A stretch of DNA of 64,000 nt from a virus. Each line of letters opens with the position of its first letter. Within the stretch, counting starts at the first letter, position 1. Positions 1,025-63,991 of the stretch are shown in pieces. Location: IMG/VR virus record IMGVR_UViG_3300021599_002910, positions 1-64,000 of that record; one strand, given 5' to 3'. A program made the translations under genes and the position numbers. The notes beneath the pieces were generated by a model. It saw only the letters and a program-made list of their open reading frames with translations. It was not told where the DNA came from and did not search any database.

Positions 1025-1240
1025 ATGAGAGAACTCATCAAAAAAATATTAAGGGAGGCAATTGTTTTGACATCAGACACACCTGATTGGGTGGAGAAGT
1101 TTCATGAACTTTCAAAAGAGGAGAGAATTCAATTTATTAAGGACTACAAAGTTCGTATCGAACGTATACTTCCAAAGATTATAGAATTTTTTAAAGTTAA
1201 GTTTGGGGATGAGTTGGTGAAGATTGCCACTCGAATATGA
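1025..1240 (+). CDS. Short tagged cargo protein (form D tag)
   Basis: 71 residues starting MRELIKKILREAI. This is an amphipathic helix ending in LRE|A, matching the form D tags at 50103-51173 (minus strand) and 62624. The rest, WVEKFHELSKEERIQFIKDY and a hydrophobic tail, is not recognised. It is the first gene of an operon of small tagged proteins. Head packaging is inferred from the tag only. Confidence 0.6.
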   Translation: MRELIKKILREAIVLTSDTPDWVEKFHELSKEERIQFIKDYKVRIERILPKIIEFFKVKFGDELVKIATRI

Positions 1241-1270
1241 GGTTTTTGAAATGACCTGGACAAAAGTATG

Positions 1271-1585
1271 ATGAAAAGATATATTATTACAGAACAACAA
1301 AACGATAGGATAAAAGAAATTATCAAACAGGTTGCTGAGACTTTCACAAACAACTCTGTTATGAAAACTGAGGTTGCGATTGAAGAAGGTAAAGCAATGA
1401 TGGGTGGAACCTATTATATTCTTCATCCAATATTTTATGTTACCGAAAGAACTATGGGTCCTGATTTTCATTTTTTTAAACACCAACTTGCACAGTTCGT
1501 TGAGGATATGGTTGGAGTTCCCGTTCATTCAGCCACCGCAACAATAAGAAATATTAACCATGAAGTACGTAATAACAGAAAATAG
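1271..1585 (+). CDS. Tagged small protein (form B)
   Basis: The N-terminus MKRYIITEQQNDRIKEIIKQ is a form B tag. Two ATGs occur in tandem (1268 and 1271); the second gives the family-standard start. The 104-residue body is unrecognised. It overlaps the start of the next gene (1560) by 26 bases, implying translational coupling. Confidence 0.6.
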   Translation: MKRYIITEQQNDRIKEIIKQVAETFTNNSVMKTEVAIEEGKAMMGGTYYILHPIFYVTERTMGPDFHFFKHQLAQFVEDMVGVPVHSATATIRNINHEVRNNRK

Positions 1586-1913
1586 GTTAAAAAATTTGAT
1601 ATTATCTTATCTTGATTCAATCGATTGGTGGGAGTGGGATATTGGTGATGGTGAGTTTAATCTTGCAGACGGACAGTATAATACAAGCAAAATTCTTTAC
1701 AGAATTCAATATTCAAGTATGCATCCACACAGAGAGTTTGAAGTGATTTACCTTAGTGATGGATTAGTTACTCAATTAACTAAACTTTTTTCAATTCCTA
1801 ATCTCGACGCCATCAAAACCATAATAAATTGGTTCAATGAGAGATATGATAAATCCCTCACAATGGATAATTTTGAGTGGATGCATGAAGAAGACCAAAA
1901 TGAAGACGAGTAA
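1560..1913 (+). CDS. Tagged small acidic protein, WF family (form B)
   Basis: 117 residues beginning MKYVITENRLKNLILSYLDS. The middle is acidic (WWEWDIGDGEF). The C-terminus IINWFNERYDKSLTMDNFEW carries the W-F-(N/E)-E-(R/K)-(F/Y) motif shared by several small tagged proteins here (1915, 30947, 43175, 43549, 49661). I treat these as one paralogous family of unknown function. Confidence 0.7.
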   Translation: MKYVITENRLKNLILSYLDSIDWWEWDIGDGEFNLADGQYNTSKILYRIQYSSMHPHREFEVIYLSDGLVTQLTKLFSIPNLDAIKTIINWFNERYDKSLTMDNFEWMHEEDQNEDE

Positions 1914-1914
1914 T

Positions 1915-2223
1915 ATGAAATACATTATTTCTGAAAATAGGTTGAATCAGTTTATTATCGACTACCTTAACAATTTGATTGAAAGGAAGGTTGTTAACCG
2001 ACTTCATCCTTATATTGTAGTATCTCACCAAATTGGGGATGGTGAAGACGATTGGGAGGACATTATGGAATTTGACCACACAGATGGAAGATTATGGGTT
2101 AACCGCCACTTCCAAAAAAATATGACCGATATGTTTGCTTTGAGTGAAGAAAAAATGAAACTCTTAATTAAACTATGGTTCGAAAATAAATTCAATGTTA
2201 AGGTGGAATTCGTAGAGCCATGA
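1915..2223 (+). CDS. Tagged small protein, WF family (form B)
   Basis: The start at 1915 is chosen because it gives the form B tag MKYIISENRLNQFIIDYLNN and lies 1 base after the previous stop. 102 residues; the C-terminus LWFENKFNVKVEFVEP matches the WF-family ending. The middle contains GDGEDDWEDIMEFD. It overlaps the next gene by 4 bases (ATGA). Same family as 1560; function unknown. Confidence 0.7.
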   Translation: MKYIISENRLNQFIIDYLNNLIERKVVNRLHPYIVVSHQIGDGEDDWEDIMEFDHTDGRLWVNRHFQKNMTDMFALSEEKMKLLIKLWFENKFNVKVEFVEP

Positions 2224-2537
2224 AATACATCATCACAGAAAATAGATTAAACAAGTTCCTTGGAATTGTTGGAGAATCTAAAATAAATGACAAGATTTTT
2301 TTATTTCTTGACAGTTACCTTGAGGACTATTCTCCTGAGGAAACTAACAACCTAGTCTTGTTCGGAAAAGGTAAGGAAAACAAGATGGCATATGAGAAAG
2401 GTGACCAAATTTTATTCGTTACTGACCAACTTTTCGAACTCGTAAAAATCATGTTTAACCTATCCAAAACAGGAACAAAAGAGGTTTTCAAGGATTACTT
2501 GGGTAACATGGGTTACAGGGTCAAAAGGTTCATGTAA
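2220..2537 (+). CDS. Tagged small protein (form B)
   Basis: 105 residues, tag MKYIITENRLNKFLGIVGES. The body has the same layout as its two upstream neighbours (acidic middle, short basic C-terminus GYRVKRFM) but lacks a clear WF motif, so it may be a diverged member. Last gene of the 1025-2537 operon. Confidence 0.65.
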   Translation: MKYIITENRLNKFLGIVGESKINDKIFLFLDSYLEDYSPEETNNLVLFGKGKENKMAYEKGDQILFVTDQLFELVKIMFNLSKTGTKEVFKDYLGNMGYRVKRFM

Positions 2538-3254: not shown

Positions 3255-4820
3255 ATGGAACTACGCTCCCTCATTTGGAAAGTATTAAAAGAACAAGTTG
3301 ACCAAAATGTTCTCAATCTCAAAAACAAATATGTAGGTGAGGGAAAGCCCATTTCAGAAGATGACTTCAATAAAATAGTTGAAGTTACGGGTAACAAATT
3401 TTATTTATTGAGTTGGCTCACAAAGAAGGTGGGAACTGGTATTATCAAAGCCGAGGATGTATACAAGTATAAAGAATACTTCGACCTATACGAGAAAAAT
3501 AAGAAAAAGTTTGAATACAAGGACATTCACCTGTATAGGACCGCCGAAGATGTTAAGAAATTTTTGCAAGAGATTGTTAAACTTAGAGAAGGAAATATTG
3601 TCTATGATGAAATACAGGGTAAAGATAACTTTGTTTCACAAAATGATATCGAGAAGTTGGAATCCTCAGGTGGAATAAAATACTTGGGGATATATGACAA
3701 TGGCGACTACAAGTATCAGGTATTCGAAGTTTTTGGTGTAAACAAAGATGTTTGGAAGTTATATAGAGACATTCTAGGAAGATGCAAAGGAAGAGACAAA
3801 GGTGCTAAAATTGATATATGTACCATAGGTCAATATAGTTACTTCAAAAATTATCTGACTGACCCAAAGGGTTCAAGTTATTTTTTACTTTTTAATTTGG
3901 ATGATAGGAGGTCTCCTTATCAATTACATCATGAGTCAGGTCAGTTTATGGACAAAAATGACTATGAAACGCATAAGATAAAACAAATAGATTTTTTCAA
4001 ATTTGTTGGTGATAGGGTTCCAAAATATAGTATCGAAGCTGAAAATTTTCCAAGCCAATTTGAAATCCCCGTTAAAGATAAAGGTTTCGAAGACGACAAT
4101 GGTAGAAAGCAGGGTGTGTGGAAATACTTTTACGGTGGAGGACAACTTGCGGGAATTAAGACTTATAAAAATGGTGAAGAAGAAGGGCCTTTTGTTCAAT
4201 ACTATTCCGACGGAAAAATTGAGAAAAAGGGAACCACTTTAAGTGGAGGTTTAGTAGGTGAATATGAAGAGAATTTCAAAAACGGAAAAATTTACAGAAA
4301 AGGCACATATAATAATAACGGAAAACGAATAGGTATATGGATGATGGGTGATTGGGACGGAGTTTATAAGAATATGAATTATTCAGATATGACTCAAACG
4401 GGCTATACTGGTACAGGTAAAATTAGATATGTTTCCAACATGAGAGACGAACGGGATTCTTACCCATATGGTAAAACTATTTTTTTCGGAAGAACAGGAA
4501 AAGTTGAAGCCATGGGTAAAATCGGAGCTACTAAGTCTTACTTAGGTAAATGGACTTATTATTTTCCAAATGGAGCTATTCGCTCCCAAGGTAGTTTTCG
4601 AGGGGGTTACCGAAGTGGTCTTTGGACTGACGTGGTCAAATCGAAAGATGGAAACATGTATATTTTCGAGGCTGATTTCTCATTAGGGACGCCATCAGAC
4701 AAAGTAAACGTTTATGATATCAATGGTGAGTTTTTGAAAAAAGTAAGTCCAAAAAAAATTAATCCACCTTATTGGGAAAATACTTATTTAAGTACAGAAA
4801 AATTTAAAGCAATAACATGA
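3255..4820 (+). CDS. Tagged large protein with MORN-like repeats (form D)
   Basis: 521 residues. The N-terminus MELRSLIWKVLKEQVDQ is a tag ending LKE|Q. Residues about 270-490 hold MORN-like units (GVWKYFYGGGQLAGIKTYKN, GKWTYYFPNGAIRSQGSF, GLWTDVV), a fold used for membrane or protein contacts. The N-terminal half (about 20-260) is unrecognised. TATTTAT lies 5 bases before the ATG. It overlaps the next gene by 4 bases (ATGA). One of the largest candidate cargo proteins. Confidence 0.75.
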   Translation: MELRSLIWKVLKEQVDQNVLNLKNKYVGEGKPISEDDFNKIVEVTGNKFYLLSWLTKKVGTGIIKAEDVYKYKEYFDLYEKNKKKFEYKDIHLYRTAEDVKKFLQEIVKLREGNIVYDEIQGKDNFVSQNDIEKLESSGGIKYLGIYDNGDYKYQVFEVFGVNKDVWKLYRDILGRCKGRDKGAKIDICTIGQYSYFKNYLTDPKGSSYFLLFNLDDRRSPYQLHHESGQFMDKNDYETHKIKQIDFFKFVGDRVPKYSIEAENFPSQFEIPVKDKGFEDDNGRKQGVWKYFYGGGQLAGIKTYKNGEEEGPFVQYYSDGKIEKKGTTLSGGLVGEYEENFKNGKIYRKGTYNNNGKRIGIWMMGDWDGVYKNMNYSDMTQTGYTGTGKIRYVSNMRDERDSYPYGKTIFFGRTGKVEAMGKIGATKSYLGKWTYYFPNGAIRSQGSFRGGYRSGLWTDVVKSKDGNMYIFEADFSLGTPSDKVNVYDINGEFLKKVSPKKINPPYWENTYLSTEKFKAIT

Positions 4821-5965: not shown

Positions 5966-6637
5966 ATGAAGTATATCATAACCAAATCACAGTTGGCGAA
6001 GTTACAAGAACAAAAGGCTTGGTATAAACCGAGCACTTGGTTTGATGATGAAGAAGAGAAACCAAAGGTTACCGATTGTAGTCCTGAAATAATTGAAGCT
6101 GAAGATTGGAAAGAACTTTATTCTGAATTGGTTGAAAAGGGAATGATAAAACAGGGAGAAAAACTTCTGATAGTTTGGGGACCTGAACAAAGAATGTATT
6201 ACACACAAGACGGTAAAACCGCAATCAAAACTGTTATTGTATCAACTGGTGCGAATGGTTTTAACAATCGTCCTGATAATAAGGAAACACCAACAGGTTT
6301 GTTACAAGTAAAAGGAAAAGTTGAGGCAAAACCATATGAGGTGATTGTGGCTAAAACTCCAACAGGTAAAATTTTGGGTCCTGACAAAGACTCGATGAGA
6401 GTGGATGAGAAGGGACAAAGACACGTGGCTGAGGTTCTCACAGGTATTTTGGAACTCGATGGGTTAGAGCCATGTAACAAAAACGCATTTTCAAGGAACA
6501 TATATTTCCACGGAACAAACAAAGAGAAAAACTTAGGAACTCCTCGTTCCAACGGTTGTATTAGAGTTTCAAACAATGCAATTCAATGGATGTTGAACTC
6601 AATTCCTTCAGGCACCAAGGTATACATAAAACCGTAA
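5966..6637 (+). CDS. Tagged L,D-transpeptidase (YkuD fold)
   Basis: 223 residues from ATG 5966, chosen because it gives the form B tag MKYIITKSQLAKLQEQ with TATTTAT 4 bases upstream. The C-terminal half has the YkuD signature: NIYFHGT, then TPRSNGCIRVSN with the catalytic Cys in SNGCIR. It also has the substrate-loop region NRPDNKETPTGLLQV. Enzymes of this family form or exchange peptidoglycan cross-links in the periplasm. Carried behind a tag, it could remodel or reseal the wall after DNA entry; that is inferred. Confidence 0.85.
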   Translation: MKYIITKSQLAKLQEQKAWYKPSTWFDDEEEKPKVTDCSPEIIEAEDWKELYSELVEKGMIKQGEKLLIVWGPEQRMYYTQDGKTAIKTVIVSTGANGFNNRPDNKETPTGLLQVKGKVEAKPYEVIVAKTPTGKILGPDKDSMRVDEKGQRHVAEVLTGILELDGLEPCNKNAFSRNIYFHGTNKEKNLGTPRSNGCIRVSNNAIQWMLNSIPSGTKVYIKP

Positions 6638-25777: not shown

Positions 25778-25802
25778 TAAAGAAATTTAACTATAAACAT
25801 GA

Positions 25803-25830
25803 CCCTCTTCCGAAACGAAGGGGGTTTTTT
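25803..25830 (+). terminator. Cassette terminator 1
   Basis: CCCTCTTC/GAAGGGGG stem, CGAAAC loop, T run. Near-identical stems close the next six cassettes. Confidence 0.92.
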
Positions 25831-25841
25831 AATTTGAAATT

Positions 25842-25873: not shown

Positions 25874-25877
25874 TGTT

Positions 25878-26129: not shown

Positions 26130-26184
26130 TTTATCCTTCAACTGAGAAAAAAATTTTTGGGAGTATTTATTGGAAACATATTTT

Positions 26185-26481: not shown

Positions 26482-26493
26482 TCTGAAATAAGA

Positions 26494-27100: not shown

Positions 27101-27121
27101 TTATATTTTTTTAAAACAAGA

Positions 27122-45985: not shown

Positions 45986-46981
45986 ATGAAGTATAAAATT
46001 TCAAATAGACTTTTTGAACAATTTGATAAAGTTCTCGAACCAAAAGTTATAAAATTATTTAAGTTTCTCAACGAGGAAAAGAAAAAACACAAGACACGTG
46101 CTAAACTTTTGGATGTAATCAAAAATGTTTCTCAATACATGGGTCTACCGGAAGGACATGAATTATACCTCCTCGAACTTTATCTTCTTAATTACAGAAA
46201 AGACGGCGATTATAAAAATCTTACGAAAGAAAATTTTGTTGACCCAAGAAAAATGAAAGGAAAGTGGACTTCAAACACAAAAGCCAATTCATATACCATA
46301 GCCCAACTCCCCTTCAAAGGTACGAATCTTGAGGGTTTTTGGTCTTTCGATGACAACAGAACTCCTTATTATATTGTAAAATCATATGGGTGGTATCCGA
46401 TTTATATTTACAAAAATGATAGATGGTATGAGGTTGCTGAACATTATTCGTCTTCAACAGGTAGACAAATGAGTAATTCGAATCCAGTTGCATGGAATGA
46501 AAATTTGGATGGAAAAGTTTTTTTACTTACAAAAGAAGAAATGAAAACGTTGCAAAGAGATGGGACCCATGATGATATTATTCGAAACAAAAAAAAATCA
46601 CTCAAATCTAAGGAATCAGAATTTCAGAATAAAAGAATGTCCTCAGCCAAACAATATTCGTGGGCGTGGGATGAAGAAATGCAAAATACCCCTTTTATCG
46701 CAAAATTCAAAATCAATTCAATTGATGATTCATCCGATAAGTTAAAAGTAATTGTTGACATATACGATGTATTGGATTTGGTTGGTGGAAAAGGTCAGAA
46801 GACCACAAAAAATTATCTTAAAGGGGAAATGGGAGATGTAACAATTCAAGATGTGGAGAAAGTCGTAAAAACAAAATTGAATGGTCAGTTAAGGTCTTTC
46901 ATAGGTCCAAGGTATACATATAATAAGGAGTTACCTCAATCTTCCCTTATAGAATACGAATTTAATCATTTGAAAAAATAA
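45986..46981 (+). CDS. Tagged large protein (form B variant), 331 aa
   Basis: MKYKISNRLFEQFDKVLEPK is a tag variant; TATTTAT is 5 bases upstream. The middle has beta/aromatic-rich GFWSFDDNRTPYYIVKSYGW, then a helical stretch (KSLKSKESEFQNKRMSSAKQ) and a C-terminal alpha/beta domain. Unrecognised. Confidence 0.65.
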   Translation: MKYKISNRLFEQFDKVLEPKVIKLFKFLNEEKKKHKTRAKLLDVIKNVSQYMGLPEGHELYLLELYLLNYRKDGDYKNLTKENFVDPRKMKGKWTSNTKANSYTIAQLPFKGTNLEGFWSFDDNRTPYYIVKSYGWYPIYIYKNDRWYEVAEHYSSSTGRQMSNSNPVAWNENLDGKVFLLTKEEMKTLQRDGTHDDIIRNKKKSLKSKESEFQNKRMSSAKQYSWAWDEEMQNTPFIAKFKINSIDDSSDKLKVIVDIYDVLDLVGGKGQKTTKNYLKGEMGDVTIQDVEKVVKTKLNGQLRSFIGPRYTYNKELPQSSLIEYEFNHLKK

Positions 46982-48915: not shown

Positions 48916-49632
48916 ATGGGAAAAAAGAAATTTTTAATATCGGAGCAAGACCTTACAGACTTGATTCTTAAATCATTGATAGGTTCAAAAGACAGTAAAG
49001 GGATTTTAGATACGTTTCTCTCGACAACAAAACCAAATCAAACTGATACGTCATCTTCCCCTTCATCAAATATAGACACCAAAACAAATTTGAACGTGCC
49101 TACAGGTGAATTCCCTGTGATGAATTTAAATAATCCTGCAGAATATGAAACTTATAAAAGTATTGCAGATAAATTTATTTCAACAAGGAAACACAACCTT
49201 TTGGGAATAACAGGTTCAATGTTAGCCGACGGAGCAAAAAATGCTCAAACCAAATACGGAAGATACGTTCCCGTGGAATTGGCACTTTCTCAATTAGCGG
49301 CAGAAGGAGGGTTCGATAAAAATCCATCCTCAAGACCAATCCGAACAAAAAATCCATTCAATGTAGGGAACGTTAATAGCGGTAAAAACATTTTTCATAA
49401 CACAGTTCAATCAGGAATTCAAGCATATTTTGATTTGATTGCAAGAAGTTATTTGACAGATACAACCTCAGGTGCTGATTTGATTAAAAATTTTGTAAAC
49501 AAGAGGGGTCTTAGATACGCTACAGGTGGTAAATATGAGGCGTTAGTTGGGCAGATTGCAAATCAAGTAAAAAATATTGCATCCCCGATTTATGCAACAT
49601 TGAGTAAAAAGATTTCAACTGATTTGACTTAA
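48916..49632 (+). CDS. Tagged glucosaminidase-like wall hydrolase
   Basis: 238 residues. The tag variant MGKKKFLISEQDLTDLILKS has TATTTAT 4 bases upstream. A Ser/Thr/Asn linker leads to VPVELALSQLAAEGGFDKNP (catalytic Glu near residue 129), NPFNVGNVNSGKNIFHN and GIQAYFDLIARSYL, the glucosaminidase/lysozyme-like pattern. It is related in fold to 40276 but larger. Confidence 0.75.
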   Translation: MGKKKFLISEQDLTDLILKSLIGSKDSKGILDTFLSTTKPNQTDTSSSPSSNIDTKTNLNVPTGEFPVMNLNNPAEYETYKSIADKFISTRKHNLLGITGSMLADGAKNAQTKYGRYVPVELALSQLAAEGGFDKNPSSRPIRTKNPFNVGNVNSGKNIFHNTVQSGIQAYFDLIARSYLTDTTSGADLIKNFVNKRGLRYATGGKYEALVGQIANQVKNIASPIYATLSKKISTDLT

Positions 49633-49660: not shown

Positions 49661-50119
49661 ATGTCGGATGTCAACGTTAAACTTAAGAGAATAATTCTCA
49701 AAAAACTTGAACAAGACTTAGGTAATAAAGTAGTAGTTCCGAATGGAATGAATTTATGGATTGTTGACCCCGATAATCAGGATTGGTTTTTCAATGTTAC
49801 CTCGGCGGGTTCTTTAGAATTCAATCAAAAATTTTTTACGTTATATTCTAACCTTTTTTCTATCGACATGAAAATTCTATCGAAAATATTGAAGGAATGG
49901 TTTGAAATAAAATTCGGTATCAGAATTCACAGTTCAATGAGAAGAACCTCAAACCTTTCTTATATTGTTGAAATTATTCTCGAATCCAACGAGAAAAAAA
50001 AGGGAACTTGGAATTTGGGTAATAGATTCGGTTTCAGTTATGATGTCGTAAAAAGGTTCTTAAACCTTCAGAAAAATAATAAATTTGTCGTTGTCGAAAA
50101 TTTTATTTTTTCTGAGTGA
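49661..50119 (+). CDS. Small WF-family-like protein (152 aa)
   Basis: ATG 49661. The N-terminus MSDVNVKLKRIILKKLEQDL is a tag-like amphipathic helix (LE|Q). LSKILKEWFEIKFGIRIHSS carries the WF motif mid-protein, followed by 60 extra residues. The stop overlaps the convergent metallopeptidase gene by 17 bases. Confidence 0.65.
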   Translation: MSDVNVKLKRIILKKLEQDLGNKVVVPNGMNLWIVDPDNQDWFFNVTSAGSLEFNQKFFTLYSNLFSIDMKILSKILKEWFEIKFGIRIHSSMRRTSNLSYIVEIILESNEKKKGTWNLGNRFGFSYDVVKRFLNLQKNNKFVVVENFIFSE

Positions 50120-51173
50120 TGGCGTAAAGTTTGGATATTTTACGAATCATTTTGTCTCCAATATAATTGAAGAATTTCTCATAATACTTTACAAAGTCTT
50201 TGGGATTTTCGAATCTCGAAACTCTCGATACAAACTTATCAAAAACTTTCTTTTTTTCATCTTGAAAACCCAAAAGTTCCTCTAAAAAATTAGTCTTAAT
50301 CATTTCTGCAAAACTTATTATTTTCTTTTGGGAAATTACAGAATAAAGAAGTTTGTATATACTTTCTAACTTTTCCTCAGGTGTCATCAACTTGGGTTTT
50401 TCACCAACTTTCCTTAGTAATTTGTTCAGACCTTTCTCATCTTTCAGTATTCTATTTTCAAAGTCCTGAATATTAAAGTCTTTAATTCTTTTCAAATTCT
50501 TGTAGGTATCATTACTTCTCAAAAACTCTAAGAAGTCTTTCTGCGAAATTTGACCTGTTTGTATTGCTGCAGATATTTCACTAGGTCTGACCAAATTTTC
50601 ATTTGCGGAGGAAAAATATATATCATGAACAAAAATATCTAAGGGTTCAAAATTGAAACCTAAATTTATAGATGATTGATATTCTGCCCTCTGAATGGGG
50701 TTGTCATAAAGTTTTTTGAAGTGGTCGTAGGCATGTTTGAACTCGTGTGAAAGATTTTCAATAATCTCGTTTTTATTTTTTTCAAAATATACTGGTAATT
50801 CTTCGTAATTGAAATCAGTCGGAACCAACATCACGATTACTAAATCCACGGTTTTATTCTTGATTGGTTCAAGTCTCATATCCTCGGTTTTTCTTGATTG
50901 ACTACGGATTGCCATAGACATTATTTCGGGTGTTTTGATTTTTGGGTGCTCATCAACCCCGAGTTTCACTTTTAGTGTTGTAAACCTGAAGTCTGCAATT
51001 TGATAATCAACTCTGAAATTCATTGAGACACCTTGACCATATTCAAAATCTTTTGAATCTAATCTCTTAACCCAATTCAAGATTCTTTGGTAGGCATTTT
51101 TACTCACCTCAACAATGTTGTGAGGAACCCCGAGTGCTTCCCTTAAAACCTTCTTTATTTCTGTTCTTTGCAT
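50103..51173 (-). CDS. Tagged HExxH metallopeptidase-like protein (form D)
   Basis: 356 residues from ATG 51173. The tag MQRTEIKKVLREALGVPHN ends RE|A; TATTTAT on the minus strand lies 14 bases upstream (plus ATAAATA 51188-51194). The zincin IIENLSHEFKHAYDHFKKLY has HEFKH near residue 143. The C-terminal 190 residues are helical. One of four HExxH proteins in the window. Confidence 0.75.
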   Translation of the reverse strand: MQRTEIKKVLREALGVPHNIVEVSKNAYQRILNWVKRLDSKDFEYGQGVSMNFRVDYQIADFRFTTLKVKLGVDEHPKIKTPEIMSMAIRSQSRKTEDMRLEPIKNKTVDLVIVMLVPTDFNYEELPVYFEKNKNEIIENLSHEFKHAYDHFKKLYDNPIQRAEYQSSINLGFNFEPLDIFVHDIYFSSANENLVRPSEISAAIQTGQISQKDFLEFLRSNDTYKNLKRIKDFNIQDFENRILKDEKGLNKLLRKVGEKPKLMTPEEKLESIYKLLYSVISQKKIISFAEMIKTNFLEELLGFQDEKKKVFDKFVSRVSRFENPKDFVKYYEKFFNYIGDKMIRKISKLYAITQKK

Positions 51174-51817: not shown

Positions 51818-52102
51818 ATGAAAAAAATACTCATCACCAAAGAACAATACAACCGTTTATTTGAGACTGGTTCCAACAGTGCTGCTATGGATTTAGACAT
51901 ATATGTTCAACCAGTAAATTACAATACTGACAACGGTAACTCGAGTGTTGAAGATTCAATTGAGGATTCAATAGATAAACTCAAAGAACTCAATTCCTTG
52001 TTCAAAGGTGGAAAAAAGACCAAGTCTTCAACAAAAAACAATTTTTTCAAAATATTGGATAAGGTCAACCAGGTATACGATGAAACAAAAACCAGTAGTT
52101 AA
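51818..52102 (+). CDS. Tagged small acidic protein (94 aa)
   Basis: MKKILITKEQYNRLFETGSN is a tag variant (FE|T). The body is acidic, Ser/Asp-rich, with a helix (EDSIDKLKELNSLFKGGKKT) and a basic end. No domain recognised. Confidence 0.6.
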   Translation: MKKILITKEQYNRLFETGSNSAAMDLDIYVQPVNYNTDNGNSSVEDSIEDSIDKLKELNSLFKGGKKTKSSTKNNFFKILDKVNQVYDETKTSS

Positions 52103-53305: not shown

Positions 53306-53803
53306 ATGAGTAAAAGATTTTATTTAACCGAATCTGAAAAAGAAGAAATCAGGAAATTTTATAATATTTCTGAAGACGAGAAAAAAGATGATAGAAAGTT
53401 TTGTCACGCTGGTAACACTAAATCGTTAGAAGAAATTATGGGCGATGATGAAGATGATGATTATATTGAGGGAGTAAGATTAAGAAAGAACGGTGTTAGG
53501 GGATTAGTTGATAAGTTAGAATTGCTCAAAACCTTGAGACTTCATCCGAAGGTTACGGATGGTGGAGAACATTTAGCACACCAAATAATGACTCATCTTA
53601 AAGGATTCAAACCCTACAATTATTTTGATGAAACAAAGAAAGAGTGTTGTAAGGCCATGGACAAAATCATAGAACTCTACAAGGAGAACGAACACGGTGA
53701 AGAATTAGTTAAGGATATTGAAAAAGTATATGCAATGCAACATCTCTCACCAAGAGCGAAAGAATTTTTAAAACACGGAATCGGAATGATTAAAGGTCAG
53801 TAA
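53306..53803 (+). CDS. Tagged helical protein
   Basis: 165 residues. MSKRFYLTESEKEEIRKFYN is a tag variant without the usual KEQ end; TATTTAT is 4 bases upstream. Acidic stretch GDDEDDDYIE; Cys/His pairs (KFCHAGN, ECCKAM) and helical C-terminus (AMQHLSPRAKEFLKHGIGMI). Unrecognised. Confidence 0.65.
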   Translation: MSKRFYLTESEKEEIRKFYNISEDEKKDDRKFCHAGNTKSLEEIMGDDEDDDYIEGVRLRKNGVRGLVDKLELLKTLRLHPKVTDGGEHLAHQIMTHLKGFKPYNYFDETKKECCKAMDKIIELYKENEHGEELVKDIEKVYAMQHLSPRAKEFLKHGIGMIKGQ

Positions 53804-54636: not shown

Positions 54637-55581
54637 ATGAAAAAAAGTATCAAATTAACTGAGACGGATTTAGAGAATATTATCTTACGAATTCTTAAAG
54701 AACAAACAGGACCAGGAATAACTTCATTTGGGCTAGATAATTCACGTGAAAACGCAAGAGTCAGTAAACAAAATGAAAATATCAGTTTAGAGAAGAAATA
54801 CCCGTGTATTCCCGAGGACGTAAGACCATTTGCAGAATACGTAGTTCAAAACAAACAAAAATTGATGAGTGAACTTGGGGTTGATGCTAATACACTGCTT
54901 TTCATGGCCAAAGCCGCAATCGGAATTATTGGAAGGGAAACTTTATTCCGTACTTATAGTGAATGGAGTGATGACGCGGCAGAATTTTTACATTCGATAG
55001 GGTTTGGATTTCTCCCAAAATCCGCTGTGGGTGGGTTAAATTTGGTGAATAAAATTTCAGGTAAACCTCAGAAACAAATGAGTTTGGGTTCAGCACAATT
55101 TACCGAAAAAACTTGGAATGATTATGGTTTAGATAAAAAAGTTGGTTCCTATTCAGATTCTTTCAGTTCTTTGAAACAAGGAATAGGGACATTACACAGA
55201 ATCAATGATGATTACAAAAGAGCCTTAAAAGTAGGTAATGGAACAGGTCCATCCGTTAATCCGATTGCAGTTAGAACTAAGGGTATCAAGGGAATTGATG
55301 GGACAGGTAACAACGCAATGGATTTAGCAATAGTTGCACACAACATGCCAGGTCTAATCACTAGATGGTGTGAAACAAAAGACCCGAATTATGCTGCACC
55401 GTGTGACAAAACGTTATATCAACCCTTTCCACAATCTAAACCTGAACTGAAAATTATGGTTTTACAAAACAAACCAATTGCCAATTATTTTCCAAACAAA
55501 GGTTCGGGTCAACAAACAAGTATTGGTTACTTGGAAAAAGTAGTAAGATACATGAATAGTTTTGGTTGTTTGAAGTTTTAA
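54637..55581 (+). CDS. Tagged lytic-transglycosylase-like protein (form A)
   Basis: 314 residues from ATG 54637. The tag MKKSIKLTETDLENIILR is followed by ILKEQ; TATTTAT is 6 bases upstream. AAIGIIGRETLFRTYSEWSD has the catalytic-type Glu near residue 101, and QMSLGSAQFTEKTWNDYGLD matches the SxGxxQ block of SLT/lysozyme folds. Two late cysteines flank DPNYAAPCDKTLYQPF. A paralog with a changed active site is at 57768-58952. Confidence 0.75.
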   Translation: MKKSIKLTETDLENIILRILKEQTGPGITSFGLDNSRENARVSKQNENISLEKKYPCIPEDVRPFAEYVVQNKQKLMSELGVDANTLLFMAKAAIGIIGRETLFRTYSEWSDDAAEFLHSIGFGFLPKSAVGGLNLVNKISGKPQKQMSLGSAQFTEKTWNDYGLDKKVGSYSDSFSSLKQGIGTLHRINDDYKRALKVGNGTGPSVNPIAVRTKGIKGIDGTGNNAMDLAIVAHNMPGLITRWCETKDPNYAAPCDKTLYQPFPQSKPELKIMVLQNKPIANYFPNKGSGQQTSIGYLEKVVRYMNSFGCLKF

Positions 55582-55626: not shown

Positions 55627-56676
55627 ATGAAAAATTTAAGAAATAAAATGAGAGTCATTCTCGAACAATACGAATCTTACACTGATTTCGTTAAAGCCGC
55701 TCAAACAAAACTTAAGGAATTAGGATACAACTTAGGGAAATCTGGTCCAAATAGGGATGGAGTTGATGGGATTATAGGAAAATTGACAAAAATTGCAATA
55801 AAGGATTTCCAATTAAAAAATGGAGGTAACGGTAAGGGGGTATTAGGTCCTTATACGTCAAAAAAATTAGGAATACCATATTTTGAGGGAAATCAAGAAG
55901 GAACTGTTCCTAGTGATAGTGGGTTGACCAAACGTTGTGGTAGATATGTATTATACCCCACCGTTAAAGATACTTTGAACGATGTTTGTAAAGGAAAGGA
56001 AAATGTTGCAAAAAAAGGTCCAATAGGATGCTCTCAATATGTTGCAAGTCAGACGGGTGTAAGACAGGGTAATGCGTGGCATGCATACAGATTGTCTAAT
56101 TCATTTCCAAACAAAGGAGATGGGTTTAGTAAAATATTCAAAGGAGGTAATCTCAATGAAATGGCTGACATTTTTTCACAAATCAACCAAAATTCGAAAG
56201 GCTTAAGTGAAAATCAAATTAATTCATCAGGTCAATTCGGTAGAATTAAGTCCTTAATTTCACAAGCTGTTCCATCTCAGTCTTCTTTTAGCGACTTAGA
56301 TTTGGGAGATGTTGTTGGAATTTATTATCCTGGTTCATCACACACAGGAGAAGCTTTCTTTTATGGGGCAACGGGATTAACATCAAAAGGAGAAAGAGCA
56401 ACCAATGGTCCTTTCTTTGGTGTTTTGGAAGGTGGAAAAATAAGAGCTTGGCAGCCAAGTGATATGGGAAAAAAATTGAAATTTGTTCCAGGTGATACTT
56501 TAACAAAGAAGGGAGAACGTTTTGGTTTCAACACTCACTTAGGTTTTGTTGGGGGAAAAACACCATCAGGAGAACCAATCATTTATCACTACGTGACCGA
56601 CACATTAAAAGCAACACCTTTATCCCAAATGGGAGGTGAATTTAACATAGTTTGGGCAAGACCAGCAAAAGCGTAA
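55627..56676 (+). CDS. Tagged wall hydrolase: PG-binding plus CHAP/NlpC-like domain
   Basis: 349 residues. The N-terminus MKNLRNKMRVILEQYESYTD ends LE|Q; TATTTAT is 6 bases upstream. Residues about 15-75 are PG_binding_1-like (GKSGPNRDGVDGIIGKLTKI). KKGPIGCSQYVASQTGVRQG (catalytic Cys), LDLGDVVGIYYPGSSHTGEA and NTHLGFVGGKTPSGEPIIYH form a CHAP/NlpC-P60-like amidase or endopeptidase. Either the endolysin or cargo. Followed 1 base later by the spanin-like gene. Confidence 0.75.
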   Translation: MKNLRNKMRVILEQYESYTDFVKAAQTKLKELGYNLGKSGPNRDGVDGIIGKLTKIAIKDFQLKNGGNGKGVLGPYTSKKLGIPYFEGNQEGTVPSDSGLTKRCGRYVLYPTVKDTLNDVCKGKENVAKKGPIGCSQYVASQTGVRQGNAWHAYRLSNSFPNKGDGFSKIFKGGNLNEMADIFSQINQNSKGLSENQINSSGQFGRIKSLISQAVPSQSSFSDLDLGDVVGIYYPGSSHTGEAFFYGATGLTSKGERATNGPFFGVLEGGKIRAWQPSDMGKKLKFVPGDTLTKKGERFGFNTHLGFVGGKTPSGEPIIYHYVTDTLKATPLSQMGGEFNIVWARPAKA

Positions 56677-57477: not shown

Positions 57478-57771
57478 ATGCGTATCTCAGAAGAAGAAAG
57501 AAAACAAATTTTATCGAAATATATTGATGATACCTCGGATGAGTTACTGACTCACTTGAAAAGACATTTTCCTGTCACAGAAGTTGAGACTACATTCGGT
57601 GGGAAATTCAAATTTATCAAAGTGGATGATAAATCAAAACCACTTTTGTCCAATAAAAAATATTTGGTGTCAGTAATTTATAATTCAATTGTTAACGATT
57701 GGGTTGCTTTAGGTGAGAAAAAAATTAGGAGAACAATCAAGAAATATTTGGATGGAGTAATGAATTCTTAA
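57478..57771 (+). CDS. Tagged small protein (97 aa)
   Basis: Two in-frame ATGs; the first (57472) overlaps TATTTAT, the second (57478) has the standard 4-base gap and is chosen, giving MRISEEERKQILSKYIDDTS. This tag recalls 28734 (ISEEEKNAI). The body ends with a basic helix (KKIRRTIKKYLDGVMNS). Convergent with the next gene. Confidence 0.65.
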   Translation: MRISEEERKQILSKYIDDTSDELLTHLKRHFPVTEVETTFGGKFKFIKVDDKSKPLLSNKKYLVSVIYNSIVNDWVALGEKKIRRTIKKYLDGVMNS

Positions 57772-58952
57772 GAAAATTTAGGATAGGAAACGTTAGTTCT
57801 AATTGCATCGTCCACACACTTGAATTGATTTATACGGTCGTTAGTTCTACTAATTAAACGCAAATTGTCCATTATCCCTTCTTCTTGACCCGATATTGTT
57901 CCATGAGTTCCTGTTAGGTAAGGTAAATAGTTGGGAATTTGTTGTCCGCGATTTACAGTCAATTTACCTGGAAAAACATCCAAATTTTTATTTTTACCAT
58001 AATAAATTTGGTTCCACTTATGTTTTCTGAAAGATTGCCAAGCTGAATCAGAACTGAATGGTTCATAAGTACTATTTGAACAAGGCGCCATGAAATCGGG
58101 TCTGTTAGTTGCACAATATTTTACTAAAATTTTTTCATCTGGATAAGTGTGAGATGCTATTGCCACATCCCATAAATGATTTCCTGTCCCAATATTACCT
58201 ACCCACCCATAAATACCCTTAGTTTTTGCAATTTGATTTACTGAGGGTTGACTACTCAACCCATTTTTTTCTGCTTGTCTGTATTTTGACAACATGTTGT
58301 ATATCACTGCAAGACCTGACCCAATAACAGTTTCCATACCCTTACCATATTTTTTTTCAACACCCGTTTTGGCAAATGTTGATGGCATGAATTCCGCAGG
58401 ACCAAAAGATGGCTCATCAACACCAAATTTTTTAGCAAGCCATTCAGTCCCTTTTGCTGCTGTCCCACTACCAACAATATTTTTTAGAATTCCGTCTACT
58501 GTGTTATAAACATCCCAAGGGTTTATGTATTTTGCAATAGGCTTAATATCATAGAGTTTGTCCGTTTTACCAAAATCAGACTGCCAACCCATAATTGCGA
58601 TGGCAATTTTGGTTAAATAACTCAGTGTTTTTTCATCGACTCCTAAATCTTTCATTAAGTCTTTTTTCTTTGCTGTAACGAATAAAACGAAATATCTCAT
58701 TTGATTGTTTGGTAAGCATTCCATATTAGGTATTTTACTCACCATATTTTCATAATTTGAAAAATCCGTTAGTTTTTTGAACTTAGATTCTTTTTCAAAT
58801 TGTCTGCCTTTCCCTAAATAATCCGAGGGTGCTGTAGATGGGTCAACACCATATCTCGGTTTGATGATTTGTGAAGTGACTTTTTGTTCGTTCATTATTT
58901 TATTAATGATATTAACTAAGTCTGATTCTTTCAATTTGACAATTCTTCCCAT
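57768..58952 (-). CDS. Tagged lytic-transglycosylase-like paralog with changed active site (form A)
   Basis: 394 residues. The tag MGRIVKLKESDLVNIINK is followed by IMNEQ; TATTTAT on the minus strand is 5 bases upstream (plus 58958-58964). KIAIAIMGWQSDFGKTDKLY aligns with AAIGIIGRETLF of 54637, with Gln in place of the Glu. EPSFGPAEFMPSTFAKTGVE aligns with the SLGSAQF block. Probably binds wall glycans without cleaving them, or uses another residue. Confidence 0.7.
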   Translation of the reverse strand: MGRIVKLKESDLVNIINKIMNEQKVTSQIIKPRYGVDPSTAPSDYLGKGRQFEKESKFKKLTDFSNYENMVSKIPNMECLPNNQMRYFVLFVTAKKKDLMKDLGVDEKTLSYLTKIAIAIMGWQSDFGKTDKLYDIKPIAKYINPWDVYNTVDGILKNIVGSGTAAKGTEWLAKKFGVDEPSFGPAEFMPSTFAKTGVEKKYGKGMETVIGSGLAVIYNMLSKYRQAEKNGLSSQPSVNQIAKTKGIYGWVGNIGTGNHLWDVAIASHTYPDEKILVKYCATNRPDFMAPCSNSTYEPFSSDSAWQSFRKHKWNQIYYGKNKNLDVFPGKLTVNRGQQIPNYLPYLTGTHGTISGQEEGIMDNLRLISRTNDRINQFKCVDDAIRTNVSYPKFS

Positions 58953-59008: not shown

Positions 59009-59698
59009 ATGATAAAATATTTAATTCTTTCTTCGGTTTTGGTACTATCTATGTTTTTCGGTAAAAATGTATGTGAAACCAAAAAACAAACCAATGTAAC
59101 CTATCTCTCAGGCATCGACATTTCCAAATATCAAGGTAATATAGATTGGAGTTCAATTGATACAACTAAAGTAAAATTCGTCTTCATAAAGTCATCTGAA
59201 GGTAGTAGTCATAAAGACCGAATGTTCAGAAAAAATCTGAACGGAGCCCTTTCAAGAAAGATAAGGACAAGTGCATATCACAGATTCTCTATTTCAAGCT
59301 CTGGCACCCAACAATTTAAAAACTACAGTGAAATTGTACCAGTTTTAAAAGGGATGTTGCCTCCCTCTATTGATTTATTAAATCTCAGTGTGTGTCCTGA
59401 AGAAAGAAAAGTTCATGTTATTCGAGAATTGAAGGTTTTCACTGATTTGTTAAAAAAGAGATATGGTAAAAGTCCTATATTCTACTTGAATGGAAAAATA
59501 CAATATGATTTCATAAAAGATAATTTTAACGACAATACTTTTTGGTTATTAAAACATGGAAACTCTGAACCATACATTTTTCAAAACCAAGAAAATCAAT
59601 TTTGGCAACACTCAACTACAGGAAGGATTAAGGGAATTAATGGAAACGTTGATATGAATTATTTTAAAGGTACTGTTCAAGATTTACAGAATCTATAA
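59009..59698 (+). CDS. Secreted GH25 lysozyme (muramidase)
   Basis: 229 residues. A signal-peptide-like N-terminus (IKYLILSSVLVLSMFFGKNV) then YLSGIDISKYQGNIDWSSID, KFVFIKSSEGSSHKDRMFRK, RTSAYHRFSI and WQHSTTGRIKGINGNVDMNY, the GH25 catalytic barrel with its DxD/E pattern (the ExE loop reads SEGSS). It cleaves the muramic acid link of peptidoglycan. Preceded by TAATTTTG (58996-59003), a host-type -7, 5 bases from the ATG. Confidence 0.85.
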   Translation: MIKYLILSSVLVLSMFFGKNVCETKKQTNVTYLSGIDISKYQGNIDWSSIDTTKVKFVFIKSSEGSSHKDRMFRKNLNGALSRKIRTSAYHRFSISSSGTQQFKNYSEIVPVLKGMLPPSIDLLNLSVCPEERKVHVIRELKVFTDLLKKRYGKSPIFYLNGKIQYDFIKDNFNDNTFWLLKHGNSEPYIFQNQENQFWQHSTTGRIKGINGNVDMNYFKGTVQDLQNL

Positions 59699-60331
59699 TT
59701 TGAACTTGAGCCCTGTTAATTTTTCTATCACAGATAAAGTTACTTCATTATTTTTGATTCCATCAGGTTTTGACTTATCGTTTTCGAACAGGTAAGACTT
59801 CCAAACGTTCTGCTTTTTAATGTAAATGACCTTCCAGCATTGTTTAGGAACCGAAACCTTTCCAATTTTTTGAATTTCACCGATATTACCACACCACACC
59901 TTTATTGAATCCTGAGTTTTTGCCTCGTCACGAACCAAGGTTTCAAGAGATTTCCAATCTCCAGCATTAAGGCTGTGATATTGTGCGGACATGTTGGAAA
60001 AATAAAAACATTCATCTTGGACTTGTTGAGTTTGACATAAATTGTCCGCAGCTGGCATCATATGACCCCTGTCAAAACCACTACCAACATAATCTTTGGA
60101 AATGTCAGTATCAACAACTAACTTTGGGTCAGGTTTGAAATTATCCTTCCTTTTGAGTGGTGTCGGGCAATCAACCATTTTTTTTGTAACCCACCATTCA
60201 ACAAGAACCGGATATTTTTTAGATTTAGAAAATACTGTAGTATAGTTTGTGTGTTTTATTCTTACAGTGTCTTGAGCGTTTGAGAAAATAAAACTCAAAC
60301 AAAGAATCGGAAATAATATCAAATTTTTCAT
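59693..60331 (-). CDS. Secreted DNA/RNA non-specific endonuclease (NUC1 family)
   Basis: 212 residues from ATG 60331, which has TATTTAT in the gene's orientation 4 bases upstream (plus 60336-60342). The signal peptide is KNLILFPILCLSFIFSNAQ. DYVGSGFDRGHMMPAADNLC holds the DRGH catalytic motif, and CFYFSNMSAQYHSLNAGDWK the metal-binding Asn region. It degrades DNA and RNA in the periplasm or outside. The last codons overlap those of the convergent GH25 gene. Confidence 0.88.
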   Translation of the reverse strand: MKNLILFPILCLSFIFSNAQDTVRIKHTNYTTVFSKSKKYPVLVEWWVTKKMVDCPTPLKRKDNFKPDPKLVVDTDISKDYVGSGFDRGHMMPAADNLCQTQQVQDECFYFSNMSAQYHSLNAGDWKSLETLVRDEAKTQDSIKVWCGNIGEIQKIGKVSVPKQCWKVIYIKKQNVWKSYLFENDKSKPDGIKNNEVTLSVIEKLTGLKFKL

Positions 60332-61558: not shown

Positions 61559-61592
61559 AAATAATTTTAGTTTGATAGAATATTTATAAAGG

Positions 61593-62600
61593 ATGGCAAC
61601 ACCCTACGCATACAATCCAAGTCAAATAGTAATCCCTGGAACAACTCAATCAGGAGATTTCGCTATCGGAACTCCAACATCAGGATATACAAACTCTCCA
61701 CAATTTTGGAATGGACCTGATGAAGATTTGGGATACATCATTGCTCAACCAGTACCAGCAGGTAACCAACCAAATCCAGTTGGTATACCCGCCTATTTGG
61801 GGTTTTTTAGAACTGATGGTAAAACTGAAAATAAATTCATTGAATTGGCGAGTAGTGTTGCTGGTCAGACCTTTACAGGGTCTACCCAAGCTCTGAATTG
61901 GATTAGTGCCAACGGATACTATACAACATTCACAGGTTCAGGTATAGTGACATCTGACTTACAACTTTATTTGACTGCTGGTAATGTAGCCTCATATCCT
62001 GGTTCAGGGATAAATTGGTATGATTTATCTCCAAACGCTTATACCGCAACACTAACAAATGGGGTTGGATATTCTGCGATAAATGGAGGAACTTTAACTT
62101 TTGCGGGAACTCAATATGTTGATACAAATAACTTCCTCAACGCTGAAACTTTTAGCGTTTCTGTTTGGTATAAAACATCACAAGGTGGGATACAAATGAT
62201 TATTTCCAAAGAAACTAATGGTGGATACCCATGGAATTACAGAATTTGGCTAAATGGTGGTCAAATTATAGGGGACATTAGGCAGAGTAGTGGAATAAGT
62301 CAATCAATAAACTCACCACTTTCTTCATACAACAATGGTAATTGGTATAATGTAGTTTTTACTAGAAATAGTTCAACTATGAAATTGTATGTGAATGGTG
62401 TGGAAATCAGTAGTGTTGCAAATACTTTAGTTGGTTCAATTACTAATAACCAAACTGCTTGGATTGGAAAATCTGCATATTTGGGTGGAAGTTATCAATT
62501 CACAGGTAATGTGTCTGAGGTTATGATATACTACGATGTTTTGACAGCCTCAGAAGTAGTACAAAATTTTGACGCAACCAAAACAAGATTTGGTTTCTAA
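61593..62600 (+). CDS. Phage surface protein with LamG-type C-terminal domain
   Basis: 335 residues; TATTTAT is 5 bases upstream. An N-terminal beta region (MATPYAYNPSQIVIPGTTQS, GYIIAQPVPAGNQPNPVGIP) is followed from about residue 120 by a concanavalin/LamG-like jelly roll: LNAETFSVSVWYKTSQGGIQ, YRIWLNGGQIIGDIRQSSGI, NWYNVVFTRNSSTMKLYVNG, YQFTGNVSEVMIYYDVLTAS. These domains bind glycans. Likely a tail or head-surface adhesin. Confidence 0.8.
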   Translation: MATPYAYNPSQIVIPGTTQSGDFAIGTPTSGYTNSPQFWNGPDEDLGYIIAQPVPAGNQPNPVGIPAYLGFFRTDGKTENKFIELASSVAGQTFTGSTQALNWISANGYYTTFTGSGIVTSDLQLYLTAGNVASYPGSGINWYDLSPNAYTATLTNGVGYSAINGGTLTFAGTQYVDTNNFLNAETFSVSVWYKTSQGGIQMIISKETNGGYPWNYRIWLNGGQIIGDIRQSSGISQSINSPLSSYNNGNWYNVVFTRNSSTMKLYVNGVEISSVANTLVGSITNNQTAWIGKSAYLGGSYQFTGNVSEVMIYYDVLTASEVVQNFDATKTRFGF

Positions 62601-62623
62601 TTTTATTTACTATTTATTCATAT

Positions 62624-63991
62624 ATGAGAGATTTGATTAAAAAATTACTAAGGGAAGAAGTTGACAGGAAAGAACTCGAAACAAAAATCCGAAGATGGGT
62701 TGGTGATACAGATGACCCCGAGGTAGGTAATAGATTGAAGAATATTCAAGCAAAGTTACAACTCAAAATACCAATTGAAGATGACGAGTATGTTTTTTTC
62801 GAAGATTTTTTGAAAAATGAAATACAGAGGAGAAAAACTTCTACAAATACAATGTCTGGAAAAATGATGAGGACAAAGCAGAATTTTTTCAATCCACCAA
62901 AAGACCAACAAAACAAAATTACAGAATTAGGAAGAAAGGCTTATTTAGATTTAATACAAACAAATCTCTCAGTTTTCTTTAACCAAGCTTTTAATCCCAA
63001 ATTTAATATGAGAATAGGAAAGCCAGGGAAAGGATGGTTCAAACAAAATCTAATTTTATTAAATCGTTTCGAAAAAGATGTTGAACCTTGGAAAAATAAT
63101 TTTGTAAAATGGGTAGAAGGCCCTGCTATGACCATCGGTGAGAAAATAACCGAACTAAAAAATAAGTTGGAAAATGAAAATTGGTTTGGACTCATCGAAG
63201 AGGATGATTGGAGTATTCTGAACCATGTAGATACAAACTACACATTTTGGGCGGACGAAATAACAAAAAGACAAGAAGGTGGAGACTTACCTATGGGTTC
63301 GGACATTAAAGTTATCGAATTATATTTCACCCCAAAAAGACTCGAATCTGCTCTACCTAAAAAATGGCAACCTATTTTGGATAGAATGATGAAAGAAAAA
63401 AATGTCGACATAAAGTCAATCAGTATGGCTCATGTGGATTTATTGGAAAAATTTCATGAAGAAAAAGAGAAAGATTTTCAGGATATGAAAAGAAAACTGA
63501 AATTTACTACAACACTTGGTGAGACGGCTGAAAAAAACTTTGTTGATTTAATCCAAAATGCTCCAACTAAAGTTACTGAAATAAAGAAATATTCTACATG
63601 GGGTAATGTAATTGATATGGTATTTGGTGTTGATATGACAGCAAAATTTATTGACGGATTCAGATTAGTTCAAGTTAAAAATGGAGAAGGTAAAGCCAAA
63701 AGTGCTTTTGTTAAGAGTCTGAAAATCCCTTATCTCTCTGTATTTCCAGGAAGACTTCCTGAGCCAGGTGTTAGAAGAAGAAAAAACCCTTATGAATTTT
63801 TATATTTTTCCGAACAAAATAACAAAGAATCCAAAAGTTTCAATCAGAATTATCTAAGAACAGACAAAGAAGTTGATTTACCTTTGTCGGATGAAGAAAA
63901 AAAAGCTAAGTATTCAGAAAAAGAAATAAGGGCTTTGGAAAAAGTTTTAGGAAAAACTTTACCCGACGATTATTTTGCTATGAACAAATAA
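62624..63991 (+). CDS. Tagged PD-(D/E)xK-like nuclease protein (form D)
   Basis: 455 residues. The tag MRDLIKKLLREEVDRKELET ends RE|E; TATTTAT is 6 bases upstream. In the C-terminal third, TTLGETAEKNFVDLIQNAPT, then VFGVDMTAKFIDGFRLVQVK shows a Glu helix, an Asp and a Q-V-K strand typical of restriction-endonuclease folds. The N-terminal 300 residues are helical and unrecognised. If ejected with the genome it could attack host DNA or protect phage DNA. Confidence 0.65.
   Translation: MRDLIKKLLREEVDRKELETKIRRWVGDTDDPEVGNRLKNIQAKLQLKIPIEDDEYVFFEDFLKNEIQRRKTSTNTMSGKMMRTKQNFFNPPKDQQNKITELGRKAYLDLIQTNLSVFFNQAFNPKFNMRIGKPGKGWFKQNLILLNRFEKDVEPWKNNFVKWVEGPAMTIGEKITELKNKLENENWFGLIEEDDWSILNHVDTNYTFWADEITKRQEGGDLPMGSDIKVIELYFTPKRLESALPKKWQPILDRMMKEKNVDIKSISMAHVDLLEKFHEEKEKDFQDMKRKLKFTTTLGETAEKNFVDLIQNAPTKVTEIKKYSTWGNVIDMVFGVDMTAKFIDGFRLVQVKNGEGKAKSAFVKSLKIPYLSVFPGRLPEPGVRRRKNPYEFLYFSEQNNKESKSFNQNYLRTDKEVDLPLSDEEKKAKYSEKEIRALEKVLGKTLPDDYFAMNK

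Follow-up and report, generated by a model that had tools for sequence, protein, structure and literature searches.

The DNA analysed here is the 64,000-nucleotide stretch formed by bases 1-64000 of the 137,034-base virus record IMGVR_UViG_3300021599_002910, hereafter the window. It carries 43 genes whose products begin with one of a few short shared peptides (tags), 32 of them recognised by sequence profiles and 11 by eye, the latter having no profile support. A hydrophobic-x-Glu site, searched as [LIVM]xE, ended at residues 9-30 in 40 of the 43 genes, Gln being the next residue in 22, and the element TATTTAT was present within 30 nucleotides upstream of 34. Matching of the record to a genome of 321,283 bases (G013) over 136,488 bases at 99.3-100% identity, in BLAST pieces of at least 800 bases, indicated that it is a fragment of a jumbo phage; the window corresponds to about 242.8-178.5 kilobases (kb) of G013, on its minus strand. 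A preliminary description of the window had interpreted the tags as a capsid-targeting and cleavage system of the T4 type. The 35 coordinates that it listed were all open reading frames (ORFs) with the N-termini described, and since [LIVM]xE occurred at residues 9-30 in 34 of them (the exception being 1560), its statement that most tags end in hydrophobic-x-Glu was borne out. Its addition that Gln usually follows barely holds (20/35), and the minus strand, marked for 57768 alone, applies also to 20345-20728. The tagged genes and the associated repeats are given below, with a slash after the Glu of the site and with the way in which each gene was recognised.

1025-1240, plus strand: tag G, MRELIKKILRE/A; 142 amino acids in the 321-kb twin; by eye
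1271-1585, plus strand: tag B; profile
1560-1913, plus strand: tag B subgroup, without hydrophobic-x-Glu site; profile
1915-2223, plus strand: tag B subgroup, site doubtful; profile
2220-2537, plus strand: tag B; profile
3255-4820, plus strand: tag G, VLKE/Q, MORN-repeat body; by eye, Pfam
5966-6637, plus strand: tag B, LQE/Q, L,D-transpeptidase (YkuD) body; profile, Pfam
17485-18822, plus strand: tag C, peptidoglycan-binding and dual-specificity-phosphatase matches weak and below cut-off; profile
18833-19507, plus strand: tag A, C39-like cysteine peptidase body; profile, Pfam
20345-20728, minus strand: tag B subgroup; profile
25394-25777, plus strand: tag A, IQE/Q; profile
26185-26481, plus strand: tag D, LKE/Q; profile
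26585-27100, plus strand: tag A, IKE/Q; profile
27211-27651, plus strand: tag A, IKE/Q; profile
27742-28041, plus strand: tag A, VKE/Q, very acidic body; profile
28143-28649, plus strand: tag D, LKE/D, hydrophobic segment in body; profile
28734-29207, plus strand: tag E (ISEEEKNAIRE/Q), hydrophobic segment in body; by eye
29285-29935, plus strand: tag B, MME/Q, body common to tag-C proteins of other phages; profile
32122-33018, plus strand: tag C, LVE/Q, P-loop ATPase/kinase-like body, weak matches; profile
33046-33606, plus strand: tag C, VSE/E; profile
33647-34186, plus strand: tag C, IVE/T, sulfiredoxin/ParB-like fold suggested; profile, model
34224-34838, plus strand: tag B, ISE/Q, hydrophobic segment in body; profile
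34879-35871, plus strand: tag B, LLE/Q, weak YkuD match; profile
35915-36940, plus strand: tag C, HExxH motif in body; profile
39118-39513, plus strand: tag A, LQE/Q, relative in phage contig L056 similarly tagged; profile
39596-39883, plus strand: tag A, LKE/H; profile
40276-40740, plus strand: tag C, glucosaminidase body; profile, Pfam
41630-41980, plus strand: tag B, LIE/D; profile
42743-43099, plus strand: tag A, IKE/Q; profile
43175-43549, plus strand: tag B subgroup; profile
43549-43881, plus strand: tag B-like, no site; by eye
44598-45464, plus strand: tag A, ends IMEE, same body with tag B in other phages; profile
45469-45921, plus strand: tag B, ISE/Q; profile
45986-46981, plus strand: tag-like, LFE/Q, relative L275 with different N-terminus; by eye
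48916-49632, plus strand: tag-like, MGKKKFLISE/Q; by eye
50103-51173, minus strand: tag G, VLRE/ALGVP, HExxH, related body after tag B in L251; by eye
51818-52102, plus strand: tag B, LFE/T; profile
53306-53803, plus strand: tag E-like, ISE/D; by eye
54637-55581, plus strand: tag A, LKE/Q; profile
55627-56676, plus strand: tag G, ILE/Q, peptidoglycan-binding domain; by eye, Pfam
57478-57771, plus strand: tag E-like, no site; by eye
57768-58952, minus strand: tag A, MNE/Q; profile
62624-63991, plus strand: tag G, LRE/E; by eye
25779-29284, plus strand: seven 76-nucleotide intergenic repeat units with terminator hairpin, some reaching TATTTAT (family D1)
33009-35958, plus strand: repeat units with TATTTAT and tag start (families D5 and D7)

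The first of these genes is shortened in the window by an indel, given its length in the twin record. Profiles from four groups of seed tags, for which a match had to exceed the highest-scoring of 5,919 shuffled decoys per profile, identified 33 tagged ORFs in the record of 137 kb, 32 lying inside the window; eight extra B-profile matches that began beyond residue 6 of the candidate peptide were set aside. Iterated profiles found 38 tagged genes in G013, 33 in a second phage (G008, 322 kb) and 2, 2 and 1 in three smaller relatives, and only these totals were used because profile D drifted into A. Flavobacterium phage immuto, an isolate with a terminase 25% identical to that of the window phage, gave no profile match to tags A-D in bases 1-148000 of its 160410. 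The 37 tagged bodies of the window phage were distributed over 34 BLAST clusters. The bodies are therefore mostly unrelated, as previously claimed, with the exception of a subgroup of tag B whose body recurs in other phages. This subgroup comprises tandem small paralogues of jumbo phages that have kept the tag and mostly lack the cleavage motif (window 1560-2537, 20345-20728 and 43175-43881; contigs L168, L188 and L165).

Among the 71 tagged proteins of G013 and G008, 61 presented [LIVM]xE at residues 12-26, compared with 28% of the 558 untagged proteins that had 90 amino acids or more and with a mean of 36% (maximum 56%) when the tagged proteins were shuffled. The site followed by Gln was found in 38% of the tagged and 2% of the untagged proteins. 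Residues 41-55 of the tagged proteins, used as a control, contained the motif in 18% of the cases and with Gln in 0%. When the Glu of the motif was replaced by Asp or Lys, the frequencies among tagged proteins were 11% and 48%, neither above the shuffled maximum (for Lys, 34% of untagged proteins and a shuffled maximum of 58%). Since the profiles cover the site, the comparison of tagged with untagged proteins is partly circular, and three tests free of this circularity were carried out, using genes with the upstream element, genes picked by their first residues and a sibling tag.

In the first test, genes of at least 80 amino acids were chosen by the TATTTAT element alone and the profile-tagged ones were removed. 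The site [LI]xE[AQS] at residues 8-30 was present in 25/134 genes with the element versus 21/450 of the others in the two jumbo phages (p 1.3e-6), and in 21/89 versus 22/310 in the three smaller relatives (p 4e-5), while Asp or Lys in place of Glu produced no significant enrichment. The stricter [LIVM]xEQ was also enriched in the upstream-element genes of the jumbo phages (13/134 versus 7/450). Genes picked in G013 by their first residues only had the site in 16 of 21 cases, the shuffled maximum being 10. Finally, a sibling-tag pattern covering residues 1-15 matched at least 120 stretches, and at the loci among the matches listed, [LIVM]xE occurred at residues 18-30 in 88% of 92 distinct proteins (shuffled 30%, maximum 40%), the Lys and Asp variants lying within the shuffled range. 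One short contig (L488, 2455-4897) held seven copies of the sibling-tag pattern inside 2.5 kb.

The head cluster of the record consists of a terminase, a T4-type portal (PF07230), an S77 protease and an acidic scaffold-like protein. The record ends where the capsid gene begins, and this gene was taken from G013 (phrog_138 major head protein, E 7e-65). The S77 (gp21-type) protease is the only one in the record over the Pfam cut-off, and T4 gp21 His85 and Ser140, which we take to be the catalytic residues, are invariant in the alignment. Relatives of this protease were found in at least 597 viral-contig stretches (597/600 among the matches listed), and the 80 that were kept were 82-92% identical. 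In the capsid protein, which reads HLINE/A, the columns of T4 gp23 E65 and A66 are invariant in six aligned sequences, T4 included; the propeptide of T4 gp23 has 65 residues according to PMC5694885. Residues 37-52 of the scaffold, which contain LSE48-Q, scored 7.2 bits with the tag-A profile, a value reached by 0 of 1,000 shuffles, and among eight other head-cluster proteins tested in the same way only the already known tagged one scored likewise. The scaffold of G008 presents LVKESLNEQ at the corresponding place. Thus, the gp21-like protease and the sites in capsid and scaffold proteins that the preliminary description had looked to are all present in this phage, and both head proteins are predicted to be cleaved at motifs of the same type as the tag sites.

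We then asked where tags and bodies join. Running the profiles on 170 loci fetched by tag patterns and on the two genomes yielded 909 tagged ORFs, corresponding to 627 distinct proteins, of which 625 were comparable; their bodies formed 228 clusters, including 165 singletons. More than one tag type occurred in 17 of the 228 clusters, the largest of which were chained by shared domains. Strict rules, which required bodies to share at least 35% identity over 50 residues while the first 12 residues of the proteins were dissimilar, gave 139 pairs in 17 body families. Junction distance measured by BLAST starts alone was blurred, and the line-up of the Glu was used instead. In the best pair of each family, the Glu was exactly lined up in 7/17 families (null mean 0.42, maximum 3, from 500 trials in which one site was moved by 5-12 residues) and lay within two residues in 9/17 (null mean 2.62, maximum 6). 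Because two of the seven exact families join a single tag type, with tags that had diverged or lengthened at the start, the count was repeated with different tag types only. This left 28 pairs in 11 families, with the Glu exact in the best pair of four (null mean 0.28, maximum 2) and in any pair for 6/11. For example, a body beginning with GLHDT comes after LLE in a protein with tag B and after LLTE in one with tag C, a body beginning with VRVPR comes after LLME in one tag and ELNE in another, and VLRE/ALGVP of 50103-51173 has its counterpart in VINE/ALGVP of a protein that carries tag B in another phage. The body of the conserved tagged head-cluster protein recurs in an uncultured phage of 642 kb (LR756502.1; L443, 125-592), where another, longer N-terminus precedes it and MKE stands a short way ahead of the body.

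The bodies themselves could be assigned in a minority of cases. In a Pfam scan of 35 tagged window proteins, an L,D-transpeptidase (5966), a C39-like peptidase (18833), a glucosaminidase (40276), a peptidoglycan-binding domain (55627) and MORN repeats (3255) were over the cut-off, a phosphatase (17485) and a P-loop kinase (32122) were weaker matches, and most of the 35 had no credible match. The HExxH motif of the 50103-51173 family is invariant in nine aligned sequences; its structural model (predicted local distance difference test, pLDDT, 84.7) contains a separate short helix at residues 3-13 and matched no solved fold under E 0.001 in Foldseek. For the body of 33647-34186, the model (pLDDT 84.4) is similar to the sulfiredoxin/ParB fold, with a best E of 0.009 at probability 1.0 and no match under E 0.001. 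The hydrophobic segments listed above for 28143, 28734 and 34224 are strong ones. Two window payloads searched against named phages had no match there, and the conserved tagged head-cluster protein matched nine records over part of its length.

Outside the window phage, every one of 15 records of at least 280 kb, some of them near-duplicates, contained 3-18 matches to tag A (E up to 1), and the three smaller relatives had 1-3. Three large control contigs were compared, of which two had none and the third had three, at E 0.002-0.01. Tags B and C were similarly distributed on 18 records. A tblastn search with two tags against named phages returned nothing at E 10, a result that says nothing because such short queries could hardly score. 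In an uncultured phage of 484 kb, with a terminase 28% identical to that of the window phage, several genes in the terminase region were seen by eye to start with similar motif-ended helices, and the sibling-tag pattern was made for these. An S77 protease over the cut-off accompanied the tags in 29/49 tag-B/C contigs of at least 100 kb, in 15/15 records of at least 280 kb (again with some near-duplicates) and in 14/15 sibling-tag contigs of at least 140 kb.

The shared leaders, the enrichment of the site, the protease, the capsid-protein site, the tag exchange and the upstream element, all computed from sequence, make it very likely in our view that the tags serve as propeptides that direct proteins to the capsid, as in the T4 internal-protein system but on a greatly expanded scale. 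The in silico checks therefore support the T4-type reading of the preliminary description, in which packaging, cleavage and ejection would proceed as follows. The tagged genes would be late genes, by virtue of the shared TATTTAT before their starts. The short tag, with its amphipathic helix, would bind the acidic scaffold core during prohead formation, and the S77 prohead protease would then cut hydrophobic-x-Glu behind its Glu, so that the body is freed inside the head. We infer this position of the cut from the protease, the conserved site of the capsid protein and the exchange of tags at the junction. By analogy with T4, the bodies (peptidoglycan enzymes, a peptidase and many others) would be ejected with the DNA and act at once in the host.

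Several results weigh against this interpretation. Ten of the 71 tagged proteins have no site at residues 12-26, and most of them belong to the tag-B subgroup, in which 1560 and several MKYLITESKL... proteins of G008, for instance, have no site at residues 10-30. The cluster that contains these site-less proteins is the largest of the 228 (158 of 625 bodies) and represents a recurring body. In the upstream-element genes of the smaller relatives, [LIVM]xEQ was not enriched (7/89 versus 15/310, p 0.2), and genes of G008 picked by their first residues only remained within the shuffles (9/20, shuffled maximum 10). With different tag types only, 7/11 families showed no exact alignment of the Glu in the best pair, and the looser count within two residues (5/11; null mean 1.40, maximum 5) did not go beyond chance, as the null maximum was also 5. 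The S77 protease was present in 3/11 random large contigs over the cut-off and in 6/11 at E 0.001; among the five of at least 140 kb, it was over the cut-off in two and at E 0.001 in four. Compared with these five, co-occurrence in contigs of at least 140 kb reached p 0.03 for the sibling tag and p 0.17 for tags B and C (26/36). We gave it little weight because random large contigs often carry the protease and the control is too small; two further random scans contained one contig above 100 kb among the matches listed. Lastly, the peptidoglycan enzymes could also be lysis or tail proteins.

This last point, the site-less tag-B subgroup and the separate helix at residues 3-13 of the 50103-51173 model would all suit tags acting as uncleaved docking helices, which recruit late proteins to the assembly or the envelope (tail, baseplate or lysis site) and in which the Glu is only a part of the helix. 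However, docking does not explain the enrichment of the Glu site, given that the Asp and Lys controls were within the shuffled range or not significant, nor that some homologous bodies have an identical starting point following the Glu although the tags before them differ, nor that the T4 site is present in the capsid protein. We therefore consider docking helices improbable.

The organisation of the tagged genes raises a second alternative, in which what the genes share is a leader in the DNA or mRNA, such as a promoter or translation start, that was copied with them by recombination, and the peptide has no role. Between 25 and 46 kb, the window holds direct repeats of the intergenic terminator hairpin, of the TATTTAT element joined to the tag start, and of the tag itself, with seven copies of the 76-nucleotide terminator unit and four each of 125- and 81-nucleotide element/tag-start units, the latter up to 90% identical. 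Terminator-like sites numbered 32 in 20 kb versus 9.8 expected (standard deviation 3.2), and sigma-70-like promoters were not enriched between 25 and 45 kb (101 versus 91.7). The TATTTAT element preceded 28/38 tagged versus 69/358 untagged genes in G013 (p 1.7e-11) and 26/33 versus 71/318 in G008 (p 1.6e-10), with a start picker that favours starts with the element in tagged and untagged genes alike. In relatives, it also precedes the protease, a core gene and other virion-cluster genes, a distribution that suggests a late promoter. Many of the genes would thus be separately started and terminated cassettes, and bodies and tags would therefore be exchangeable. These repeated units of terminator, TATTTAT and tag start, and the frequency of the element before the window genes, are what a copied leader would leave behind. 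In contrast, synonymous codons within the tags agreed about as codon usage predicts while the peptide was kept (0.57 versus 0.46 expected for seven A tags, 0.41 versus 0.50 for six B tags and 0.55 versus 0.48 for five C tags), indicating that the peptide itself is selected, and the same tags are found in many other phage contigs, so that a leader without a peptide role is very unlikely. The chance is similarly slight that the tags are ordinary N-termini of a few diverged true protein families without module exchange, as the tag-B subgroup, which shares tag and body across phages, would allow, given that 37 window-phage bodies separate into 34 clusters and the 625 comparable ones into 228, and that the strict rules still leave 11 body families in which different tag types are joined.

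Beyond capsid-targeting propeptides in this phage, we tentatively propose, while leaning slightly against it ourselves, that the tags form a modular code by which large T4-like phages in general load their cargo, with several exchangeable tags side by side in a single genome, dozens of effector cassettes that each have their own start and terminator, swaps at the protease site and recurrence in many uncultured jumbo phages. The head would then be a programmable delivery device whose cargo is readable from sequence. Different tags might set the copy number or the place in the core. If the capsid-targeting interpretation is true, head-delivered proteins could be read from sequence alone in uncultured phages (627 distinct tagged proteins), the products of scattered hypothetical genes of jumbo phages would be grouped into a defined class of proteins that are injected, as candidate factors for anti-defence, host takeover or the envelope, and the choice of protein cargo by the virion would be turned into an experimentally testable question.

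Other features of the record were also observed. Compared with the 321-kb twin, it presents indels of tens to hundreds of bases at window positions 1226-1227, 2710-2711 and 39864-39866 and at record positions 104388-104931, three of which fall in or beside the tagged region; they represent either population variation or assembly differences. An untagged DNA/RNA non-specific endonuclease with an N-terminus that looks by eye like a secretion signal is encoded under a TATTTAT element at 59693-60331 (minus strand), next to an untagged GH25 lysozyme at 59009-59698 (plus strand). In the head cluster, a ribosomal protein S21 gene (PF01165; L317:13711-13896, equal to G013:C1:108711-108896) has the portal and protease genes on either side and is read from the opposite strand.

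The same gene arrangement is reported for bS21-encoding Bacteroidetes lake phages, with genomes of 293-331 kb (Chen et al. 2022, PMC9723584). The placement of the S21 gene and the genome of about 321 kb are alike here, and from the comparison of gene arrangement and genome size, made without a tree, the window phage probably belongs to this group. The terms propeptide, capsid targeting and internal protein had no occurrence in a whole-text term search of that article. Among the papers covered by our literature search, none had the tag sequences searched and none joined capsid targeting with metagenomics, and the further matches listed contained nothing closer than the systems compared here. 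SPN3US and phiKZ are jumbo phages with protease-cleaved head cargo, according to PMC5694885 and PMC13282480. Several propeptides of SPN3US exceed 100 residues and only one is described as having T4 length (PMC5694885), whereas the tags here have about 10-25 residues and the window tag sites lie at residues 9-30, so that the long propeptides of phiKZ and SPN3US have no counterpart among them.

The closest resemblance is to T4 (IPI, IPII, IPIII, Alt and gp21), for which a precedent of each proposed step is described (PMC9026906; PMC12373910). T4 Ip1-3 are reported to have the leader alone in common and to block different restriction enzymes (PMC12373910; similarly PMC3012670), and at least 10 internal proteins of the T4 type are reported in related phages (PMC12373910), so that the kind of system is already known. 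In the T4 record, IPII and IPIII share their first 10 residues. Replacement of Glu by Asp at position 10 is reported to block the cut in T4 (PMC9026906). As in T4, the phage analysed here has a short N-terminal leader common to non-homologous bodies and ending in (L/I)-x-E or the like, except in the tag-B subgroup, together with an S77 protease and a gp23-type capsid protein with the same cut site. The letters of the tags differ from those of the T4 leaders by inspection. Unlike T4, with its handful of internal proteins, this phage presents 43 tagged genes in one 64-kb window, with several tag families in one genome, cassettes that have their own upstream element and terminator, and several enzyme bodies.

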